A DNA stretch of 58,730 nt, taken from assembly GCA_902789225.1 (NCBI GenBank), contig CADANC010000003.1:1-58730 (forward strand). Reading direction: 5' to 3'. How positions within the stretch are numbered: the stretch's first letter is position 1; each line of letters begins with the position of its first letter. This document shows, piece by piece, positions 34,266 to 44,859 of this stretch. A model generated the notes under the pieces. The model had not been told where the DNA came from. It searched no databases and worked only from the letters and a program-made list of their open reading frames with translations. The position numbers and the translations under genes were made by a program. Source of the stretch: an uncultured Erysipelotrichaceae bacterium (lineage in GTDB: Bacteria > Bacillota_I > Bacilli_A > RF39 > UBA660).

Positions 34266-34293
34266 AAAGAATAAACCATAAAGTTTATTCTTT
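34266..34293 (-). terminator. terminator of the extended preQ0 operon
   Basis: AAAGAATAAAC and GTTTATTCTTT form an 11-bp stem across a 6-base loop, overlapping the stop of the methyltransferase gene. The following T run is modest, so efficiency is uncertain. Confidence 0.6.
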
Positions 34294-35122
34294 AATTAGT
34301 ATATTCACTATAAACCAAATCTGTAGTTATAGGTAATTTAATTTTATTATTTACTTTATACTTATTAAAAATATTAATCATTTCAGATTTATAAGTATCT
34401 ATATCAATTTTCTTATCTTTAATAGTATTACATATATTTTTTAATCCATGTAAAGGATATAATTCAAAAGATAAAGCAAAATCTAAAAACTCTGCTTCAT
34501 CTAAATATATAGAATTATCAAAAGTCTTTTGAATAATTTCACCTTCATATAAATCATTACAACTTAATATATTTTCTCTAACTTCAGTTTTAAAATCTTC
34601 ATTAAAATTATCTTTTGAATATCTAAAGTCACAAGTAGGATAAACATTAATTAAAACATTCAACATATCATTAAAAACTTCTTTTTGAAAATCATATCTA
34701 TTCCAAATAATAAATATATTATCAGAATTTTTTAATATCCTATTACATTCTATTTTAAACTTGCTAATATCAAATAAATGTAATGCTTGAGCAACAAATA
34801 CATAATTAATACTATTATCATCCAACTTAGTGTCATAACAATTACCTAAAACACTACTATAATTAGTATATTTATTTAATTTATAATCAGATACTTCTTT
34901 CATATTGATATCAGGCTCTACCCCAATAAATTTAATATCATATTTTAATAAATCCTTAGAAAGTATTCCAGTACCACTTCCTATTTCACAAACTATATTA
35001 TTATTATGTTTCAAAAAATAATTATCATTAATAAAATCTAATAATTCTTTAGAATAACACATTAATTTATCATAGTACTTTGCACTATCTATATCTTTTA
35101 CAAAACTCTTAACTTTATTCAT
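34292..35122 (-). CDS. class I SAM methyltransferase, last gene of the extended operon
   Basis: 276 residues. SAM motif VCEIGSGTGILSKDLL (about 45-60), FIGVEPDINMKEV and the segment AQALHLFD fit a Methyltransf_11-type enzyme. Target not predictable. It shares one base with the gene before it and ends at a hairpin, closing the operon of nine upstream genes. No membrane segment. Confidence 0.8.
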   Translation of the reverse strand: MNKVKSFVKDIDSAKYYDKLMCYSKELLDFINDNYFLKHNNNIVCEIGSGTGILSKDLLKYDIKFIGVEPDINMKEVSDYKLNKYTNYSSVLGNCYDTKLDDNSINYVFVAQALHLFDISKFKIECNRILKNSDNIFIIWNRYDFQKEVFNDMLNVLINVYPTCDFRYSKDNFNEDFKTEVRENILSCNDLYEGEIIQKTFDNSIYLDEAEFLDFALSFELYPLHGLKNICNTIKDKKIDIDTYKSEMINIFNKYKVNNKIKLPITTDLVYSEYTN

Positions 35123-35577
35123 TATATCTTTTTTCCATATCTTTTTATTACATCTAATTGTCTTTTACTTTCCTCTTCATCATCAGCCATATGAAGAATA
35201 TTTTCTAAATATAAATCTATTCCTTTTTCACTATTAATTACTTTAGAAAAATCATTTCTAATATCTCTTTTTAAAGTAAAAATGTCTTTATAAAATGATT
35301 TATCCTTACTAGCAACATAAATCTTTCTTAATGAGTGAATATTAATATAAAAGCAAGAAATAATTTGAGGATTATAAACAACTAAATCATTGTACTTATA
35401 ATCACTTTTCCATTTTTCATCATCAGGATAATCATAAAATTCATCAATAAATCTTTTGAAATTACCATCTATTATAAAGTCACCTATCATAGACTTATCA
35501 TAAGAATCAGGAATACTTTCAATTATTCTGTCTTTAAAATCATATGAAGGATTCCATATTACAGAAAGAATTTTCAT
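35122..35577 (-). CDS. unknown 151-residue protein in the extended operon
   Basis: Starts MKILSVIWNPSYDFKDRII, then PDSYDKSMIGDFIID and a run FYINIHSLRKIYVASKDK; the tail has HMADDEEESKRQLDVIKRYGKK. No family recognised; the early IWNPSYDFKD looks like the start of a small nucleotide- or sugar-handling domain, but this is only a guess. It overlaps the carbamoyltransferase stop by four bases and the methyltransferase start by one base, so translation is coupled on both sides. Confidence 0.6.
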   Translation of the reverse strand: MKILSVIWNPSYDFKDRIIESIPDSYDKSMIGDFIIDGNFKRFIDEFYDYPDDEKWKSDYKYNDLVVYNPQIISCFYINIHSLRKIYVASKDKSFYKDIFTLKRDIRNDFSKVINSEKGIDLYLENILHMADDEEESKRQLDVIKRYGKKI

Positions 35578-38204
35578 TTTTTAGCTCTCTCAATAATATT
35601 TTTAGCAAAATCAATTAATTTTTGATTATGACATCCAACTCTAGCAACTTCAGGAATATACCAATCAGGATCATATATATTTAATCCAACTCCATCAGTT
35701 TGTCTAATATAAATATTAGGCTCAGCTAATTCTAATTCCATTAAAGTAGGTTCTCCCTCTTCTATAATAGCATCTACTCTAGCAATTAATACTTTATCTA
35801 TTGGAAGTTTTTTAACAATATTTTCAGCAAAATTTAGTAAATTATCAGGAAGCTTTTCAACTCCTTCTTTTTCTTTTTTACCATATAATTTACCAGGCTT
35901 TTTACATACAGCTTGAACAAATTTTCCATTTAAGAAAACCATTCCATATTCTCCCTCTTTAATTCCCTCAGCAAATACTTGTAAAATAACTCCTCTTTCA
36001 GAAAACTTATCTAATAATTCTTTAAATGCTTTTTCATAATTTTTCTCAATATGAGAATTTTCATCATTATTAACATTAAAAGGATCTATTAAATAAGTAT
36101 TATAACTTCTAGCAGAAACAGCTGGTTTTAATACAAACATCTTCTTACCATAATATTTACCTAAATATTTTTTAATTGTTTTCTTCAATGTTTTCTCAGG
36201 CACAACTAAAGATTTATTAGTATTAGATAAAACAACACTATCCATAATTTTTACATTATTATCTTTTAACCATTTAATCTGTTTATCTTTATAAATATTA
36301 TTTAAAACTATATCTACATCATTATAAACATTTACTTTTTTCTTCTTTAAAGATTTTAACCAATCAACATATTCATCTAATCTTTCATGATAATCCCAAG
36401 TAGATCTAATTATAACAATATCAGGTCTATTCCAATCATATGAATTATCATCCCAAGAAACAATATTTACATATGCTCCTTCATTCTCTAAATACTTTTT
36501 TAAAATTCTATCATCAACATCTTTAAAATAAGGCGTATAAGAAACAATTGTTACATGAATATCTTTTTTCTTAACTAGATAATTACCCATTACTAAGTAA
36601 TCTAAATTCATTCTTTCAAAACCATCAATTGCATCTTCTGGAGTGCAAACAATAGGTTCACCTTTAACATTAAATGAAGTGTTTATTACTACAGGAATAC
36701 CTGATAATTTATAGAAATTATTAATTATATTATAAAATCTTTCATTATATTCTTTAGTAACAGATTGAATTCTAGCAGTACCATCAACATGAGTAATAGC
36801 TTGTAGCCTATCTTTTTTAGAATCTAATACATTAAAATTCTTTGTCATATGAGGAGAAAAAATATTAGAATCAAAATATTTATCTTGTTCTTCATATAAT
36901 ACTGCAGGAGCAAGTGGTCTCCAAACTTCTCTTCCTTTTAAAGTATTCATTCTAACTAACATCTCATACTTTTCAGGACTAGCAAGTAAACTTCTATTAC
37001 CAAGTGCTCTAGGTCCAAGTTCTATTCTTCCTTGGAAATTAGCAACTATATTACCTTCATTTAATAACTCAGCAATCTTCTCTTCAATATTATCAATAAT
37101 TTCATATTTATATTTTTTTGCCTTTAAAGCTTCTTCAATTGATTTAGAATCATACTCTAATCCAGTATAAGGAATCATTTCAATTCTAACATCATCGCCT
37201 GAGTTGACTGCTCCAAAAATTGCTGCTCCTAAAGATATTCCACCATCGTTTGCAGCAGGTTGAATAAATACACTATCTATATTAGGCATAGCTTCAATTC
37301 TAGATGAAGTAGGACAATTAAGTGCAACACCTCCAGCTAAGCATACCTTACTAATATTATATTTTTTAGCATATTTATCAACTAATCCAACCATTATATC
37401 TCCAAGTAATAATTGAGCAGAAGCTGCCAAATTAGCATAAGGCATAACACTATCATCAACTTCTACAATTCCTTCTTCTCTTTTTGGAAGAATCTCATCA
37501 AGTATTTCTCTCCACTTCTTAACAGAAGCAGATTCTTCATCTTTACTAACTTTTTCTATATGAAATGAACATTTCAACTCACCATTTTCATCAAGATAAA
37601 TATGCTTTTTCAAATCATCATAATAAATTGGTTTTCCATAAGACGCAAGTCCCATAGTTTTACCTTCTTGTCCACTATGAAAACCACAATGTTTAGTAAT
37701 ACCTGTATAAAAATATCCTAATGAAACAGTTGATTCATATAAAAGTTCCATCTTATTATCTTTTCTATTTGCCAGAAACATTGAAGTTGCTATATCTTCA
37801 CCTTGACCATCAATAATAAATACTAATGCGTCCTCATAATTAGATGGAATAAAAGTACTATATGCATGAGCAATATGATGATTTATATAACTTATCTTTG
37901 ATGCATACTTTTCATTTCCAAATAATAATTTAGACATTTCTTCATTAGAAATAAATTCTTTATTAATCATCTTATATAAAGAATGATAATCCCATCCGAT
38001 AACAAATTTATCAATATCATCTAAACTTAAATTAGAATATTCTAAGCATGCTTTAATTGACTCTGTAGGTAGTGAATCATATGCATGTCTTTGTCTAATT
38101 ATCTTTTCTTCTTCAATAGAGAAAACTAACTTTCCATCAACAATTAAACTAGCTCCTCCATCATGTCCTCTATCAGTATAACCATTTAATCCAATAGTTT
38201 TCAT
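35574..38204 (-). CDS. carbamoyltransferase (NodU/CmcH) fused to ATP-grasp ligase
   Basis: 876 residues. Residues 1-335 are the N-terminal domain of O-carbamoyltransferases: TDRGHDGGASL (10-20), the metal-binding NHHIAHAYS (108-116), IDGQGEDIATS (131-141), SLGYFYTGITKHCGF (161-175) and EGKTMGLASYG (180-190), with LAGGVALNC (289-297). Residues 345-545 are the C-terminal carbamoyl domain: GRIELGPRALGNRSLLA, WRPLAPAVL and SFNVKGEPIVCTPEDAI. Residues 550-876 are a distinct ATP-grasp: RSTWDYHERLDEYVDWL, FVLKPAVSARS (Lys 693), VFAEGIKEGEYGMVFLNG and ARVDAIIEEGEPTLMELELA (Asp 811, Glu 823, Glu 825). The domain order and the DcsG-like STWDY motif suggest carbamoylation followed by amide or ring formation. 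GAGGGT precedes ATG 38204. Confidence 0.88.
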   Translation of the reverse strand: MKTIGLNGYTDRGHDGGASLIVDGKLVFSIEEEKIIRQRHAYDSLPTESIKACLEYSNLSLDDIDKFVIGWDYHSLYKMINKEFISNEEMSKLLFGNEKYASKISYINHHIAHAYSTFIPSNYEDALVFIIDGQGEDIATSMFLANRKDNKMELLYESTVSLGYFYTGITKHCGFHSGQEGKTMGLASYGKPIYYDDLKKHIYLDENGELKCSFHIEKVSKDEESASVKKWREILDEILPKREEGIVEVDDSVMPYANLAASAQLLLGDIMVGLVDKYAKKYNISKVCLAGGVALNCPTSSRIEAMPNIDSVFIQPAANDGGISLGAAIFGAVNSGDDVRIEMIPYTGLEYDSKSIEEALKAKKYKYEIIDNIEEKIAELLNEGNIVANFQGRIELGPRALGNRSLLASPEKYEMLVRMNTLKGREVWRPLAPAVLYEEQDKYFDSNIFSPHMTKNFNVLDSKKDRLQAITHVDGTARIQSVTKEYNERFYNIINNFYKLSGIPVVINTSFNVKGEPIVCTPEDAIDGFERMNLDYLVMGNYLVKKKDIHVTIVSYTPYFKDVDDRILKKYLENEGAYVNIVSWDDNSYDWNRPDIVIIRSTWDYHERLDEYVDWLKSLKKKKVNVYNDVDIVLNNIYKDKQIKWLKDNNVKIMDSVVLSNTNKSLVVPEKTLKKTIKKYLGKYYGKKMFVLKPAVSARSYNTYLIDPFNVNNDENSHIEKNYEKAFKELLDKFSERGVILQVFAEGIKEGEYGMVFLNGKFVQAVCKKPGKLYGKKEKEGVEKLPDNLLNFAENIVKKLPIDKVLIARVDAIIEEGEPTLMELELAEPNIYIRQTDGVGLNIYDPDWYIPEVARVGCHNQKLIDFAKNIIERAKK

Positions 38205-38212
38205 TAACCCTC

Positions 38213-39121
38213 CTATTTTTTATATCTATACCATTGATATCTTAATACTTTTGTAGGTCCATAACTTTGTTTATATCTATTAATATTGCTTGTCTTCTCA
38301 GTAATCTCTTCCCCTGTCGCAAGACCACTCATATCATAATAATCTATATCTTTATTAGAACATGCATAATTAATTAATTCATAATCTATTCTTGCTGAAG
38401 GACTAATCTTAGAATATAAAGAATCAAAACAATTATATCTAGTAATAAGAGTATTACCAAAATGATAAATAACATGACCAGCAATTACTTTATCCTTATC
38501 TAAACAAACAACCAAATCACTATTCTTTTCACTTAAATTATGCTCTAAATAATCAAGTGAAAAATCAACTCTACCACCCGTCTCATTCATTCTTTTATTA
38601 TATAATTTATAAAACTCATCAATATACTCTACTCCATATTTAATATTTTCTCTAGGTATATTAATTAATCCCTTTTTAATAATTCTTCTTCTATTTGCAT
38701 TACAATTATGTAAAATTTCTTCCATTGATAAAGTGGTATCAATTAAAGGAGTAACAAAATACCAATCTTTTTGAATATCTCCAAATTTATTATTAAATTC
38801 TTCTATTTGATCATCAGAAATTGAAAACATTACATCTTGTTGATAAATTTCAGAGACTTCACTTATAAATCTCATTATATCTTCTACAGTAGCATTACTA
38901 GATACTATAGGTCCAAAAGGTATTTTTACAAAACCCTTCTTTAATTTAGCAAAAGCATAAATCTTTTTATCACCATCATTATCATATAAGAAATTAATTT
39001 CTTCATCTTCCATATAAGTTCTAGAATAATCATAAGACTGATAATATGTAGGATTACTTAATTTTAATATAGTATCATCCCAAATATTTTTAGCCATCTT
39101 TTCATCTAAAATTCTTACCAT
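38213..39121 (-). CDS. FemAB/GNAT-like peptidyl or aminoacyl transferase
   Basis: 302 residues with the double GNAT-like layout of FemAB-type transferases. The first half has WDDTILKLSNPTYYQSYDYSR and GPIVSSNATVEDIMRF; the second has LVVCLDKDKVIAGHVIYHFGN, then LITRYNCFDSLYSKISPSAR and DIDYYDMSGL, the end pattern of this group. Such proteins move amino acids from aminoacyl-tRNA, or acyl groups from CoA, onto peptidoglycan or small molecules. It lies eight bases upstream of the carbamoyltransferase gene. Confidence 0.75.
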   Translation of the reverse strand: MVRILDEKMAKNIWDDTILKLSNPTYYQSYDYSRTYMEDEEINFLYDNDGDKKIYAFAKLKKGFVKIPFGPIVSSNATVEDIMRFISEVSEIYQQDVMFSISDDQIEEFNNKFGDIQKDWYFVTPLIDTTLSMEEILHNCNANRRRIIKKGLINIPRENIKYGVEYIDEFYKLYNKRMNETGGRVDFSLDYLEHNLSEKNSDLVVCLDKDKVIAGHVIYHFGNTLITRYNCFDSLYSKISPSARIDYELINYACSNKDIDYYDMSGLATGEEITEKTSNINRYKQSYGPTKVLRYQWYRYKK

Positions 39122-39123
39122 AA

Positions 39124-39903
39124 TTAACTCCTACTAAAATAATATCCTAAACAATAAACAATATTCCAAATTATGCAATAAAAACCAGATAAAATATTTT
39201 CTCTAAAGCAAGGAAATATAAGATTCCAATTAGCAGTAGGTCTCTTTTCATGAAGTCCTTTTCTAGCAGCAGTCTTAACACCTGTACCATATCTATAAGC
39301 AGAACGTAAATCCTGTTTAAAACTTAAATTATCATGTATACAGGTAACTGATCTAATAAGTCCTACCTCAATATTCTTATCCTTACATCTTTTATTTAAT
39401 TCAGAATCTTCAATCCATTTAATTTCTTCATCAAAATAATAACCAATTAATTTAATAATATCTTTATGAATACCAATAGAAGGACATAACGCATATCCAG
39501 GTATTCCCATAGATCTTAAAACACTAACAATCTTACTTTGAAAATTATCACTACTAAATTTAACATACCCATCTACTAATAAATACTTATCTAACATTTC
39601 ATCATATTTTTTAATAGCTCCTCGTTTCATAATACAATCGCTATCATAAAATATTACTTTATCATATGTTGCATTAATCATACCTATATTTCTAGATTTA
39701 GAAAGATTTCGCTCTCCAATCTCAATTATTTTCAAATCAAATTTTTTACTCTTTTTATAACTATTAACAATATCTTTTACCTCTTTAGTTCCACCATTAA
39801 TAACTACTACTACTTCACAATGCTCTTTAATGCTATCTAGCATATTTTTTATTCTAGAATCATCAGCGACACATATTACTAAACTAACCATGTATTTTTT
39901 CAT
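39124..39903 (-). CDS. family 2 glycosyltransferase
   Basis: 259 residues. SLVICVADDSRIKNMLDSI opens the GT-A fold; GERNLSKSRNIGM, VIFYDSDCIMKRGAI (the DXD metal site) and EEIKWIEDSELNKRCK with the usual ED pair follow. A C-terminal hydrophobic segment may tether it to the membrane. It adds a sugar from a nucleotide sugar. It overlaps the symporter gene by 20 bases. Confidence 0.85.
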   Translation of the reverse strand: MKKYMVSLVICVADDSRIKNMLDSIKEHCEVVVVINGGTKEVKDIVNSYKKSKKFDLKIIEIGERNLSKSRNIGMINATYDKVIFYDSDCIMKRGAIKKYDEMLDKYLLVDGYVKFSSDNFQSKIVSVLRSMGIPGYALCPSIGIHKDIIKLIGYYFDEEIKWIEDSELNKRCKDKNIEVGLIRSVTCIHDNLSFKQDLRSAYRYGTGVKTAARKGLHEKRPTANWNLIFPCFRENILSGFYCIIWNIVYCLGYYFSRS

Positions 39904-41197
39904 ATTTTCTAAATAGCTCCTTAAATTTCTTACTCAAGATAAATAAAGCAATAATATTAGGTATAACAATAAATCCAACTGTCATATCAGCCATAGACCA
40001 TATTGCTTCAATTGGAAGAAATACAGCAAAAACTATTGGAAAAATATAAATCCATTTTAAGAACTTAAATGATTTATCTCCAAATATATATCTCATACAA
40101 GTACTAAATTCATAGAAGAATCCTATATAAGTAGAGCAAGCAAATGTTACAATTACAAAACATAAAATGTATTTACCTATATTACCAAATACTGAATGAA
40201 ATGCCGCTAAAACAAGAGGTGCTCCATCTACTCCACTTGTCCATACTCCAGTACTCATAATTAATAAACCAGTTAAAGTACATACAATAAAACTAACTAT
40301 ATACACCTCAACCATTCCCCACATACCTTGAACAACAGGATTATTAGTAGAAGTAGCATGTACTGTAGTAGAAGTACCTGTACCTGCCTCATTAGCAAAT
40401 ATACCTCTAGCAGCACCCTTACTTATAGCATCAATTACACTTGCTCCAGCAAAACCACCAATAGCAGGTGCAGGACTAAATGCATATTTAAAAACATTAG
40501 CTATTCCAACAGGAAGATTTTTAATATTAATAATTATTACAATAAGATTAATAATAAAGTAGAAAATAAACATAATTGGAACAGATCTCTTTAGAATAGA
40601 ACTAACTCTTTTTAATCCTCCAGATACAACTAATATTCCTACACTTATTAAAATGATTGCTACAACAATTTTACCAATGTTAAATGTATCTAGTATTGAT
40701 GTAGCAGCTGTATTCATTTGAACAAAACCTGAATCACATAAAACATATACTAATAAGAAGAAAACATAAACCCCTGATAAAATAGGTCCAACCTTCTTCC
40801 CAATATGTTTAATATAATACATAGGTCCACCTACATATCCATCATCACTTTTCTTATGATAATGAACAGCCATAGTAACTTCTACCATCTTTGTAGCCAT
40901 ACTAAATAGTGCAATTAACCACATCCAAAATAATGCACCAGGTCCACCAACAGCAATAGCAGTTGCAACTCCAGCAACATTACCAGTACCAATAGTACCA
41001 CCTAATACAGAAGTAATAGTTTTATAAGACTCATCCCCAAAATTCTTTAATTTACCAATAGTATTCTTATATATAGTTTTAATTCCTCTAATTTGTAAAA
41101 AATTAGTGCACTTACTAAAATATAATCCAGCTATAACAATAAATAAAGTAAGAGGAACTCCCCATATATAAGAAATAACATTATATAATCCATCCAT
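39884..41197 (-). CDS. sodium:alanine/glycine symporter (AGCS family)
   Basis: 437 residues with about 10-11 membrane segments. GTGNVAGVATAIAVGGPG and ALFWMWLIALFSMATKMVE plus ARGIFANEAGTGTSTT are diagnostic. It imports small amino acids (Ala, Gly and similar) with Na+. Its place between folE and the glycosyltransferase, one base from folE, suggests supply or export of an amino acid used by the ATP-grasp and FemAB-like enzymes; this is inference. Confidence 0.9.
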   Translation of the reverse strand: MDGLYNVISYIWGVPLTLFIVIAGLYFSKCTNFLQIRGIKTIYKNTIGKLKNFGDESYKTITSVLGGTIGTGNVAGVATAIAVGGPGALFWMWLIALFSMATKMVEVTMAVHYHKKSDDGYVGGPMYYIKHIGKKVGPILSGVYVFFLLVYVLCDSGFVQMNTAATSILDTFNIGKIVVAIILISVGILVVSGGLKRVSSILKRSVPIMFIFYFIINLIVIIINIKNLPVGIANVFKYAFSPAPAIGGFAGASVIDAISKGAARGIFANEAGTGTSTTVHATSTNNPVVQGMWGMVEVYIVSFIVCTLTGLLIMSTGVWTSGVDGAPLVLAAFHSVFGNIGKYILCFVIVTFACSTYIGFFYEFSTCMRYIFGDKSFKFLKWIYIFPIVFAVFLPIEAIWSMADMTVGFIVIPNIIALFILSKKFKELFRKYEKIHG

Positions 41198-41198
41198 T

Positions 41199-41774
41199 TT
41201 ATTTACCTATAGAATTTAAAAATTCTTTTCTTAATTCATTATTATTTTTGAAATCTCCTGTAAAATAAGTAGTTACAGTCTTTTCTCCATTTTTCTTAAT
41301 ACCCCTAGTAGTAACACAAGAATGTTCTCCAGATACAATAACTGCTACGCTATCTGTAGAACAACTCTTCATAATTATGTCACCAATGTCTTTAGTTAAT
41401 CTTTCTTGTAATTGAAGTCTTTTAGATACCATATCAACTATTCTAACTATCTTAGATAAACCAATTACTTTACCCTTAGGAATATATGCTAAAGAAACAT
41501 TCATATTATACATAAGAGCCATATGATGTTCACAATAACTAAAAGTAGGTATATCTTTTTCAATAATCATTCCATCATAATCTTCTACAAAACATTTACT
41601 AAACATTTCAGCAATTTCATCATTAGAATATTTCATACCTTCAAAAACTTCATCATACATTTTAGCAACTCGCTTAGGTGTTTCAACTAAACCATCTCTA
41701 TCAGGATCTTCACCTAAAGCAATTAATATATTTCTAACTGAATCTTCAATTAGTTTTAAATCAAAATTCTTCAT
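41199..41774 (-). CDS. folE: GTP cyclohydrolase I
   Basis: 191 residues from ATG 41774 (AAAGG eight bases upstream; a GTG three codons earlier would overlap queE). [37 protein letters not shown] with the zinc Cys-His, [18 protein letters not shown] and [15 protein letters not shown] are the family marks. It turns GTP into 7,8-dihydroneopterin triphosphate, the first step to folates and to preQ0. It follows queE directly. Confidence 0.96.
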
Positions 41775-41775
41775 T

Positions 41776-42426
41776 TTAAACACCTTTCATATTAGGATCC
41801 CATATAATTTTATGTAATTGAACTTGAACTCTCATTTTAGAAGTATCAATATTTTTTGAATTTAAATACTTCATAAATTCAACTATTTTTTCAGGATCAA
41901 TCTTTTCAAATATAGGACTTAAATAAATATAAGATTTAACATCATAGGTACTTAATATTTCCTCTATTTTAGAAAAATCACTTTCTTCTAATACAAATTT
42001 TAAAACATCGCCATCTTGTAATTTTTCAATATTAGAAAGAAGCATCTTATCTTCCATTCCACTACTAGGTAATTTATAATCCATAGTAATTAAACATTTA
42101 CCTAAATACTTAGAAATATCTATAGAACCATTTGTTTCAATATTTACTTTATATTTATTTTTTAATAACTCTTCAATTAATTTTTCTGCTTCAGGAAAAA
42201 GTAGTGGTTCTCCTCCAGTAAGAGTGATATTTTTACAATTATAAGTAGAAACTTTATCTAATATTTCATCAATACTCATAAAAGTACCAGAACTTTTCTT
42301 TAAAGCATATAAAGTATCACAATAAGAACACTTTAAGTTACAACCAGCTAGTCTTATAAATACTGCTAACTCACCTGTTCTTAATCCTTCCCCATCTATA
42401 CTATAAAAAATCTCATTTACAAACAT
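41776..42426 (-). CDS. queE: 7-carboxy-7-deazaguanine synthase
   Basis: 216 residues. [20 protein letters not shown] precedes the radical-SAM triad [25 protein letters not shown] and [15 protein letters not shown] follow. It converts 6-carboxytetrahydropterin to 7-carboxy-7-deazaguanine with a [4Fe-4S] cluster. It lies two bases after queD. Confidence 0.95.
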
Positions 42427-42428
42427 TT

Positions 42429-42761
42429 CTAAACCTCATAAATAGCAGTATTATCTTCACTTTCAGTTACTTCTACTCTATAACAGAAAGGACTTAATTC
42501 ATCACATATCCATTTAGCAATATTTTCTGCTGTAGGATTAAAATCAAATATTTCATTTAAGTATTTGTGATCCATCTTTTCTTTAATCTTTTTCTTAATA
42601 ACAGTAAAATCTAATATCATACCATTTTTATCTAATTCTTCACTTCTACAATAAATAACAATTATCCAGTTATGTCCATGTAGATTTTCACATTTACTTT
42701 CATAATCAAGTTTTAAATTATGAGCAGCACTAATTTCTAATCTTTTTTTAACGTAGTACAT
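42429..42761 (-). CDS. queD: 6-carboxy-5,6,7,8-tetrahydropterin synthase
   Basis: 110 residues. ISAAHNLKLD, CENLHGHNWIIVIYC (zinc His pair and catalytic Cys), MILDFTVIKKKIKE and DHKYLNEIFDFNPTAENIAKW match the QueD/6-pyruvoyltetrahydropterin synthase fold. It makes 6-carboxytetrahydropterin. It is eight bases downstream of queC. Confidence 0.94.
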   Translation of the reverse strand: MYYVKKRLEISAAHNLKLDYESKCENLHGHNWIIVIYCRSEELDKNGMILDFTVIKKKIKEKMDHKYLNEIFDFNPTAENIAKWICDELSPFCYRVEVTESEDNTAIYEV

Positions 42762-42769
42762 ATATCCTC

Positions 42770-43426
42770 CTAATTATCATATTCAACGGGATCAGTTAAT
42801 CCTAATTCTTTAAATGCTTCTAACCTTCCTCTACAAGGTTCACATTTACCACAAGCTTTATCTCCTCTAGCAACACATGTCCAAGTATATTCAAAAGGAA
42901 TACCAAATTCATGAGCAAGTCTTATATCATCTATTTTTTTATTATAATTACATGGAGCAACTACTTTTAAGTTTTTAGTTAACTTAGTACTAATAGAAAC
43001 TAAATCATTAACTTTTTCATAGTATTCAGGACTATTATCAGGACAAATCCAAGGTCCTGCTTCACTACCTGTATAAATAGCATCTGCTTCAATTACTTCA
43101 GCCCATGCAACACATGCAGCAATAATACATGAATTTCTATTAGGAACATAGATTAAATCATCAGCTGATTCACCTTCTTTAATATCACCATCAGTAATTA
43201 AACTTCTTCCTAGCCTACCTAACCACTTCATATCTATAATTTTATGTCTTTTACAACCAAAATGTTCAGCTAACTTTTTAGAATTAGCTATTTCTCTTTC
43301 AACATTCTTTTGACCATAATTAACAGTTAAGAAATATAGATCATACCCCTCTTTCTTTGCAATAGCAGCACTAACTGCACTATCGATTCCACCACTTAAT
43401 GCAACAATAGCTTTCTTTTTTTTCAT
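42770..43426 (-). CDS. queC: 7-cyano-7-deazaguanine (preQ0) synthase
   Basis: 218 residues from ATG 43426 (AGGAGGG 5-6 bases upstream); a longer frame to 43486 covers the terminator and is rejected. ALSGGIDSAVSAAIAK is the ATP-binding PP-loop, YVPNRNSCIIAACVAWAE, GSEAGPWICPDNSPEYY and the zinc set CVARGDKACGKCEPC complete it. It forms preQ0 from 7-carboxy-7-deazaguanine, ATP and ammonia. It is the first gene of the operon, behind a promoter, leader and terminator. Confidence 0.95.
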   Translation of the reverse strand: MKKKKAIVALSGGIDSAVSAAIAKKEGYDLYFLTVNYGQKNVEREIANSKKLAEHFGCKRHKIIDMKWLGRLGRSLITDGDIKEGESADDLIYVPNRNSCIIAACVAWAEVIEADAIYTGSEAGPWICPDNSPEYYEKVNDLVSISTKLTKNLKVVAPCNYNKKIDDIRLAHEFGIPFEYTWTCVARGDKACGKCEPCRGRLEAFKELGLTDPVEYDN

Positions 43427-43605
43427 AATTACCCTCCTAACAAAAAAAGAAAATACCGCAATATTTTCTTTTAAAATTAACAACATAATATTTGTGCAAC
43501 TTAAACTACAAATATAAATACTTATAAATTAAGGCAGCCAATATAATCGCAACTTTAACTGAAAATATTGTCTGTGAATAAAATTATGAAACTTTTTTCA
43601 TTTCT
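43427..43605 (-). promoter_or_regulatory. queC leader, likely attenuator or unrecognised riboswitch
   Basis: About 175 bases lie between the promoter and queC, and an intrinsic terminator (43442-43470) sits just before the ribosome binding site, the usual layout of a riboswitch. Two related units, AGTTAAAGTTGC (minus, 43549-43560) and AGTTTAAGTTGC (43496-43507), are 53 bases apart. PreQ1-I and preQ1-II signature strings are not seen. I cannot name a class. Confidence 0.55.
43442..43470 (-). terminator. terminator in the queC leader
   Basis: A 9-bp stem (AAGAAAATA with TATTTTCTT) and a 6-base loop are followed on the minus strand by TTTTT. It ends only a few bases before the AGGAGGG of queC and so can cut off the operon. 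Confidence 0.8.
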
Positions 43606-43642: not shown

Positions 43643-43671
43643 CAAAAAAAAGAGGATTAAATAACCCTCTT
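43643..43671 (-). terminator. intrinsic terminator after the KsgA-family gene
   Basis: AAGAGG with CCTCTT and an inner TTA/TAA pairing, followed on the minus strand by eight T. It overlaps the KsgA-family stop and isolates the queC promoter. Confidence 0.75.
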
Positions 43672-44859
43672 AACTTTAACATCAGGTAGTTCTTCAACTA
43701 CTTTACCAGTTAATCTATCTTTTAATTCACTTTCTTCTAAATATTCTAAACCTCTATGAAGTAATGCATCATATCTAGTCATATCATATAAATAATCATA
43801 AGTTCTTTGATATTTTTCTTTAACATGATTTTTTCTTACAGGCATAAAGTTTTCATCTAAATCAAATTCTTCATCTTCGTAATCAAAGTCACTATCTAAT
43901 CTTCCAGTTTCTTTATATCTTCTATATTGATACATAGGATCATCCAAATCTCTACCAGATCTAGAAGTACGAGATTTATTCTTTTGATCATTTCTAATTA
44001 AATCTTGAATTAAAGTAGAAATTTGACCATTAGTTAAATCATAAATATTTTTATCACCTATTACTTTAGAAGTACAATCAGTATTAACTGAAATAGATTG
44101 AGATTTATGTTTATTTAATTTATAAACTTTACCTTGATGTAACATCATATTATAAACTCTATTAATAGATGGAGCTAACCCTCTCTTGTCAGTTAAAAAA
44201 CTAGACATAATTCTATCAACAGTAGTTTTTTTCTTCTTAGGTGTTAAATTAACTAAGAAAGAAGTAACTGCAGGCTCTGGATAAAATGCTTCACTAGGAA
44301 TAGCACATTCAATATCAACATCAACCATAGAATGACATATTGCACCTATTAAACCAAACTCTGAGTTTTGACATCTACTTTTACCATCAGTTATTTGTAT
44401 AGGAGCAACCATCTTTCTTACACTATTTTGACCTAAAACTAAAGTAATACTTTTTAAAATAGAAGTACTATTTCTTTCATTCTTATCATAACCTAAAGCT
44501 CCAGATTGAGCCAAATTAATTAAGAATGGTTCAGTTATAGTATAAGGTAAATTAGCAACAATTCTATCATAAGTAGAAAAATCAAATTCTAGTGCATCAC
44601 CTTCAATTACTGTAACATTACTTCTATCCTTATATTTTTCTTTTAAATAATTAGCATAATAAGTATCTTTTTCAATAACAGTAACAAAATTATTACCCGA
44701 AATTAAATAATCAGTTAAAGCTCCTTCTCCTCCACCAATTTCACAAATAGTTTCATAAGGTTGAATATTAGCAGAGTCATATATTCTTTTTAACATATTT
44801 TGATCAACCATAAAATGTTGATCCTTAGTTGGATTAGGATTTTTTACAAATTCTTCCAT
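43657..44859 (-). CDS. KsgA/Erm-family RNA adenine dimethyltransferase with extra C-terminal region
   Basis: 400 residues. PTKDQHFMVDQNMLKRI, VICEIGGGEGALTDYL-like motif I, VIEGDALEFDF and the adenine-binding NLPYTITEPF (about 99-108) are the KsgA/Erm marks. Typical KsgA is about 270-290; here a charged tail from about 290 (RSGRDLDDPMYQYRRY, DSDFDYEDEEFDLDENF) adds about 110 residues. It could be the housekeeping 16S rRNA enzyme or a resistance-type 23S rRNA one; no decision is possible. The gene ends with an overlapping terminator. Confidence 0.82.
   Translation of the reverse strand: MEEFVKNPNPTKDQHFMVDQNMLKRIYDSANIQPYETICEIGGGEGALTDYLISGNNFVTVIEKDTYYANYLKEKYKDRSNVTVIEGDALEFDFSTYDRIVANLPYTITEPFLINLAQSGALGYDKNERNSTSILKSITLVLGQNSVRKMVAPIQITDGKSRCQNSEFGLIGAICHSMVDVDIECAIPSEAFYPEPAVTSFLVNLTPKKKKTTVDRIMSSFLTDKRGLAPSINRVYNMMLHQGKVYKLNKHKSQSISVNTDCTSKVIGDKNIYDLTNGQISTLIQDLIRNDQKNKSRTSRSGRDLDDPMYQYRRYKETGRLDSDFDYEDEEFDLDENFMPVRKNHVKEKYQRTYDYLYDMTRYDALLHRGLEYLEESELKDRLTGKVVEELPDVKVKRVI

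Follow-up and report, generated by a model that had tools for sequence, protein, structure and literature searches.

A carbamoyltransferase–ATP-grasp fusion in a candidate preQ0-derived natural product operon of an uncultured Erysipelotrichaceae bacterium

A 58 730 nt stretch of DNA from an uncultured Erysipelotrichaceae bacterium (contig CADANC010000003.1; hereafter, the window) encodes a single polypeptide in which an O-carbamoyltransferase is joined to an ATP-grasp enzyme. On balance, we favour the view that this fusion is a genuine bifunctional enzyme, and that the operon in which it lies makes a natural product derived from preQ0 (7-cyano-7-deazaguanine). The presence of a preQ0 operon in a genome in which QueF was not found is a larger and more telling result than the fusion itself, and was absent from the original prediction. 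The operon connects the carbamoyltransferase/ATP-grasp pair to a supply of preQ0 in a family that otherwise seems to lack preQ0 synthesis, and may represent a new branch of the preQ0/deazaguanine natural products.

Domain architecture of the fusion protein

The fused gene is read from the minus strand (38204→35574) as an ORF of 876 aa, with an ATG start and an AGGAGG-like ribosome site. The interval originally given for the gene was correct; a plus-strand reading of 35574–38204 was rejected, as it contains stops throughout. Residue checks and predicted folds showed that the two catalytic halves originally recognized in the polypeptide are both intact in this one frame (Table 1). The halves meet at residue 547/548, where there is no appreciable linker. 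The structure prediction proposed as a check on both halves was confident, with a mean pLDDT of 83.5 for the full-length protein and 84.6 for the ATP-grasp half, and Foldseek recovered both folds from the full-length model, TobZ first and DcsG second.

Table 1. Positions in the window of the fusion gene, its parts and the neighbouring genes
Feature	Position	Strand	Evidence or remark
Fused O-carbamoyltransferase (residues 1–547) and DcsG-like ATP-grasp (residues ~548–876)	35574..38204	-	Pfam, NCBIfam, TobZ alignment, predicted structures, Foldseek
O-carbamoyltransferase half, residues 1–547	36564..38204	-	Pfam, TobZ alignment, Foldseek, residue mapping
ATP-grasp half, residues 548–876	35574..36563	-	Alignment of 15 relatives, predicted structure, Foldseek
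Junction GTTAAGAAAAAAGATATTCATGTA, no stop and no in-frame canonical start	36550..36581	-	Shorter by 2 nt than in G502, where the genes overlap as TAATG
queC, 7-cyano-7-deazaguanine (preQ0) synthase, first operon gene	42770..43486	-	141 bits, NCBIfam cut-off 150.3
queD, 6-carboxytetrahydropterin synthase	42429..42761	-	94.2 bits, over cut-off
queE, 7-carboxy-7-deazaguanine synthase (radical SAM)	41776..42426	-	259 bits, NCBIfam cut-off 260.1
folE, GTP cyclohydrolase I	41199..41783	-	Over cut-off
AGCS-family amino acid carrier	39884..41197	-	Pfam/NCBIfam
Family 2 glycosyltransferase (GT2)	39124..39903	-	74 % identical in G502
GNAT/FemAB-like transferase, possibly aminoacyl-tRNA-dependent	38213..39121	-	In 2 of 145 family genomes
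Unknown 151 aa protein, overlaps the fusion stop	35122..35577	-	No match in Pfam, NCBIfam or PADLOC
SAM-dependent methyltransferase, last operon gene	34292..35122	-	Pfam; comparison with G502
Additional KsgA/Erm-like rRNA adenine dimethyltransferase, 400 aa, NLPY motif	43657..44859	-	Adjoins the cluster in both genomes

Judging from its sequence, the N-terminal half is a class III (NodU/CmcH/TobZ) O-carbamoyltransferase with its Kae1-like N-terminal and YrdC-like C-terminal domains in full. Pfam placed nearly complete Carbam_trans_N (PF02543, 135 bits) and Carbam_trans_C (PF16861, 218 bits) domains within residues 13–546. TobZ, the carbamoyltransferase of tobramycin biosynthesis, aligned over residues 1–547 (E 1.5e-82, 32 % identity) and was also the best Foldseek match of the predicted structure (TM 0.88 by target). 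Residues H14, H109, H113, D132, D320, K423, R478 and S510 align with H14, H114, H118, D137, D338, K443, R498 and S530 of TobZ; among them, H109, H113, D132 and D320 match the His-His-Asp-Asp metal ligands and H14 the catalytic histidine. H14, K443 and S530 of TobZ are positions mutated in its deposited structures. In GdmN, the positions equivalent to these four ligands and to H14 are described as the iron ligands and the catalytic histidine, respectively (PMC9633730). All of the catalytic residues tested are present in residues 1–547, in keeping with the claim that the first 545 residues hold all of the NodU/CmcH motifs. Within its family, this half is unexceptional. TobZ ends at the point where the fusion protein continues into the ATP-grasp half. 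TobZ-type carbamoyltransferases, which have no dimerisation domain, usually act on polar substrates (PMC9633730).

The C-terminal half is assigned to the ATP-grasp superfamily by its modelled fold and by the presence of the ATP/Mg residues. The original description of a complete ATP-grasp at residues 550–876 agrees with the predicted fold and with the invariance of K693, Q742, E752, R809, D811, E823 and E825 among 15 relatives. The proposed likeness to DcsG, the ligase of D-cycloserine formation, held for the fold: DcsG was the closest solved structure in Foldseek (TM 0.78–0.82 by target, 17 % identity), ahead of PsnB, D-Ala-D-Ala ligase, ArgX/LysX and RimK; it was found at 3.5e-18 by a profile built from 15 sequences; and the R-S-x-W and E-x-E-L motifs are common to both proteins. 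The likeness did not extend to family membership, as residues 559–834 matched the NCBIfam D-cycloserine synthetase model NF058666 (E 9.8e-24) with 84 bits against a cut-off of 360 bits. Identity as a D-cycloserine synthetase was rejected on this score, and because no other D-cycloserine pathway gene was found among the identified genes of the operon.

A cyclase of the DcsG type, in which the activated carboxylate would be closed by the carbamoyl nitrogen to give a cyclic imide or carbamate amino acid, is nevertheless a tentative alternative for this half. In the DcsG reaction, an O-ureido nitrogen closes the ring, a carbamoyl group is chemically similar to an O-ureido group, and DcsG is the nearest solved enzyme; set against this are the low identity and the sub-threshold score given above. 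The stand-alone relatives within the family, which lie beside an aminotransferase gene and in several cases beside a second, amino-acid-ligase-like ATP-grasp, would also suit ligation.

These stand-alone DcsG-like ATP-grasps form a conserved unit at four loci (L043 8010–11665, L044 328–4025, L048 7969–11631 and L050 7512–11160), in which an aminotransferase of ~506 aa, assigned to class I/II by Pfam in L043, precedes the DcsG-like ATP-grasp, and a protein of ~420 aa follows it. In L043, the ~420 aa protein is itself an ATP-grasp, similar to l-amino acid ligases, and the unit further includes a gene for a family 3 solute-binding protein. The unit is a candidate for the synthesis of an amino-acid-derived product.

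The preQ0 operon and its distribution

Ten minus-strand genes make up the operon (queC, queD, queE, folE, AGCS carrier, GT2, FemAB-like, fusion, unknown and methyltransferase genes), in which the fusion comes eighth and the intergenic gaps are −20 to +8 nt. As in preQ0 natural product clusters, folE, queD, queE and queC stand beside tailoring genes, with QueC and QueE scoring just under their NCBIfam cut-offs. Carriers of the AGCS family usually import amino acids. The operon contains no NRPS, phosphoribosyltransferase or dedicated efflux pump gene. The GC and GC3 values of its genes are unremarkable, and a GC anomaly as a mark of transfer was, therefore, rejected.

The gene order is conserved, at 35–79 % identity, in one other genome, G502, an uncultured Firmicutes MAG (locus L035, contig CAMOPK010000001.1), and the two cluster-bearing genomes represent two genera. 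The G502 operon has no counterpart of the unknown 151 aa gene, and differs by the insertion of an S66 peptidase gene and a radical SAM/SPASM gene between queD and queC (L035 16002–17872). S66 (LD-carboxypeptidase/MccF-like) enzymes can give self-immunity to peptide-nucleotide antibiotics. The last operon gene, a single methyltransferase in the window, is a tandem double methyltransferase of 484 aa in G502 (L035 7336–8790).

Next to the cluster in both genomes lies a long KsgA/Erm-like gene, on opposite sides in the two cases and separated from the operon by a 170 nt gap in the window. The G502 counterpart (L035 6114–7259) is 55 % identical. The long enzyme has an extended C-terminus, and each cluster genome also encodes other KsgA-like copies of ~270 aa; the seven other family genomes tested had the short kind only. 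The long form may be a self-resistance enzyme.

QueE was found in 2 of 386 family genomes, exactly the two that carry the cluster. QueF was absent from both of these fragmented assemblies, which are 96 % (the genome of the window) and 88 % (G502) complete, whereas a genome from the same class, used as a control, has it. A search for preQ1 riboswitches gave no match at the gathering threshold. Taken together, these observations suggest that preQ0 synthesis arrives with the operon and has no obvious path to queuosine. The tRNA-guanine transglycosylase TGT is encoded in the genome of the window but not in G502. It also occurs in relatives that have no QueE, which would be expected if they rely on salvage.

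A model for the pathway

The most economical reading of the operon is that its product would be a preQ0-derived natural product that is both carbamoylated and aminoacylated. FolE, QueD, QueE and QueC would supply preQ0. The N-terminal half of the fusion would convert carbamoyl phosphate and ATP to carbamoyl-AMP, from which the carbamoyl group would be moved to the hydroxyl of a polar building block, either an amino acid or a sugar. The C-terminal ATP-grasp would phosphorylate a carboxylate for coupling to an amine; most likely, the carbamoylated amino acid would be attached to the core in this way, with ring closure as in DcsG as the alternative. The GT2, FemAB-like transferase and methyltransferase would attach further groups, and the KsgA/Erm-like enzyme may shield the ribosome of the producer from a product that is presumably secreted. 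The fusion of enzymes that are neighbours in a pathway is strong evidence that they act together, and so ties carbamoylation to ATP-dependent ligation in a single pathway; it is plausible that carbamoylation comes first and that its product is then the substrate of the ATP-grasp. A bolder version, which we advance as speculative, is that the product is an antibiotic directed against the ribosome, a 7-deazaguanine bearing carbamoyl and aminoacyl groups, with the KsgA/Erm-like enzyme providing self-resistance and the fusion channelling the carbamoylated amino acid straight into an amide bond, in uncultured producers with small, low-GC genomes.

Several elements of this model have parallels in known pathways. 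In polyoxin biosynthesis, the NodU-like carbamoyltransferase PolO modifies an amino acid, which the ATP-grasp enzyme PolG then couples to a nucleoside (PMC4029187, PMC11641026); however, PolO and PolG are encoded by separate genes, the core is a uracil nucleoside rather than a 7-deazaguanine, and PolG is likened to the ATP-grasp half by pathway logic. The core of the huimycin cluster consists of the four preQ0 genes, a methyltransferase gene and a glycosyltransferase gene, and is adjoined by the carbamoyltransferase gene KALB_4074 (PMC7439116). The window operon shares folE, queD, queE and queC with the preQ0 clusters of huimycin and toyocamycin, as well as the methyltransferase and glycosyltransferase genes with the former. 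Both of those clusters, in contrast, belong to actinomycetes and have no carbamoyltransferase–ligase fusion, and neither an ATP-grasp nor a FemAB-like gene is among the huimycin cluster genes listed in PMC7439116. FemAB-like, tRNA-dependent transferases add amino acids in the nucleoside and streptothricin-like antibiotic pathways of pacidamycin (PacB) and BD-12 (Orf11) (PMC12945691). The FemAB-like protein of the window may likewise be tRNA-dependent. If the model is correct, 7-deazaguanine natural products would extend from actinomycetes to small-genome uncultured bacteria, in the form of a compact, expressible operon.

Counting against the model, the cluster occurs in only two genomes, both of them fragmented assemblies, and GT2 and FemAB-like proteins are also found in cell-wall pathways. 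Further points against it are the lack of NRPS, phosphoribosyltransferase and dedicated efflux pump genes, the usual role of AGCS carriers in import, the differing position of the KsgA-like gene in the two genomes with its 170 nt gap in the window, and the sub-threshold scores of QueC and QueE. The operon could instead decorate a cell-surface polymer: a glycan or a peptidoglycan precursor would be the substrate of the GT2 and FemAB-like enzymes and would be carbamoylated and amidated by the fusion, with the que genes serving as co-transcribed suppliers of queuosine. The frequent use of both transferase families in envelope pathways, a capsule-type PGA_cap gene farther off in G502 and the presence of TGT in the genome of the window fit such a role. 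We consider it unlikely, as the que genes belong to the same tight operon in two genera, whereas queE is otherwise missing from the family sample; QueF is missing from both genomes and TGT from G502; and the operon encodes no lipid carrier, flippase or polymerase.

Slightly less probable still is the entry of preQ0 into RNA or DNA, either as a hypermodified base of tRNA resembling queuosine or as a DNA modification of the 7-deazaguanine type, which would be decorated by the fusion, the GT2 and the FemAB-like enzymes. TGT in the genome of the window again favours this possibility; the tRNA enzyme TsaD is a relative of the class III carbamoyltransferases, and TobZ-like carbamoyltransferases have reportedly been linked to cytosine modification. 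The absence of QueF, and of TGT from G502 (88 % complete), argues otherwise, as does the outcome of the defence system search, in which dpd and other defence models were unmatched: PADLOC returned neither DpdA nor any further defence component, the similarities being limited to generic ones to QueC, viperin-like proteins and methyltransferases. Nucleic acid modification is also hard to reconcile with the amino acid carrier and with the KsgA-like enzyme linked to the cluster.

Probable origin and rarity of the fusion

In G502, the closest relative, the carbamoyltransferase (71 % identical) and the ATP-grasp (48 % identical) are encoded by adjacent genes that overlap as TAATG. A net difference of 2 nt removes both this stop and this start from the window. 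The split state is probably ancestral, because every other ATP-grasp or carbamoyltransferase examined in the family has a gene of its own, and the fusion gene would have arisen through a small insertion or deletion where two translationally coupled genes overlapped.

Separate homologous genes together with a read error at the junction had been named as evidence against a fusion; the separate genes do exist in G502, but the ATP-grasp frame argues against a read error: from residue 539, which still lies in the carbamoyltransferase, to residue 654 it contains no ATG, GTG or TTG, so that correcting a single base could not restore two normal genes. It is, therefore, very improbable that assembly or sequencing errors have joined an ordinary two-gene pair, even though the fusion was seen in a single genome, its closest relative has the two genes apart and the junction includes six consecutive A: stretches of six or seven A elsewhere in the fusion gene leave the frame undisturbed, so at least two errors would be needed, and the contig is 130 kb long. 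We conclude that the fusion, which rests on one assembly, is probably genuine.

The fusion is also likely to be rare, to judge from the sequence collections searched. The proposed search for the same domain order yielded no second fusion in genomes, plasmids, phages or viral contigs. Three further genomes of the genus and 386 family genomes yielded none, and an orthologous carbamoyltransferase was present in just two of the 386. A phylum-wide sample of 392 genomes contained neither a second fusion nor an orthologous pair, and viral contigs contained no relatives. The best matches in plasmids and phages were stand-alone carbamoyltransferases of ~29–35 % identity, all of which aligned over less than 80 % of the query. 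Scanning a large collection of genome contigs with the single protein returned no relatives, and a scan with an alignment, based on two peptide patterns and of low sensitivity, returned only the G502 contig. Nothing relevant to a carbamoyltransferase–ATP-grasp fusion appeared in the literature searched. The original prediction considered this pairing apparently undescribed; the fusion is indeed new in the sources searched, but the logic of carbamoylating and then ligating is already known from the separate enzymes PolO and PolG (PMC4029187, PMC11641026).

A further carbamoyltransferase, in genome G725 (41 %), was set aside as belonging to a different cluster. At this locus (L062 9733–14981), a class III carbamoyltransferase gene lies between two histidyl-tRNA synthetase-like genes and is adjoined by an S66-like peptidase gene, an arrangement that looks like a pathway with a resistant copy of its target.
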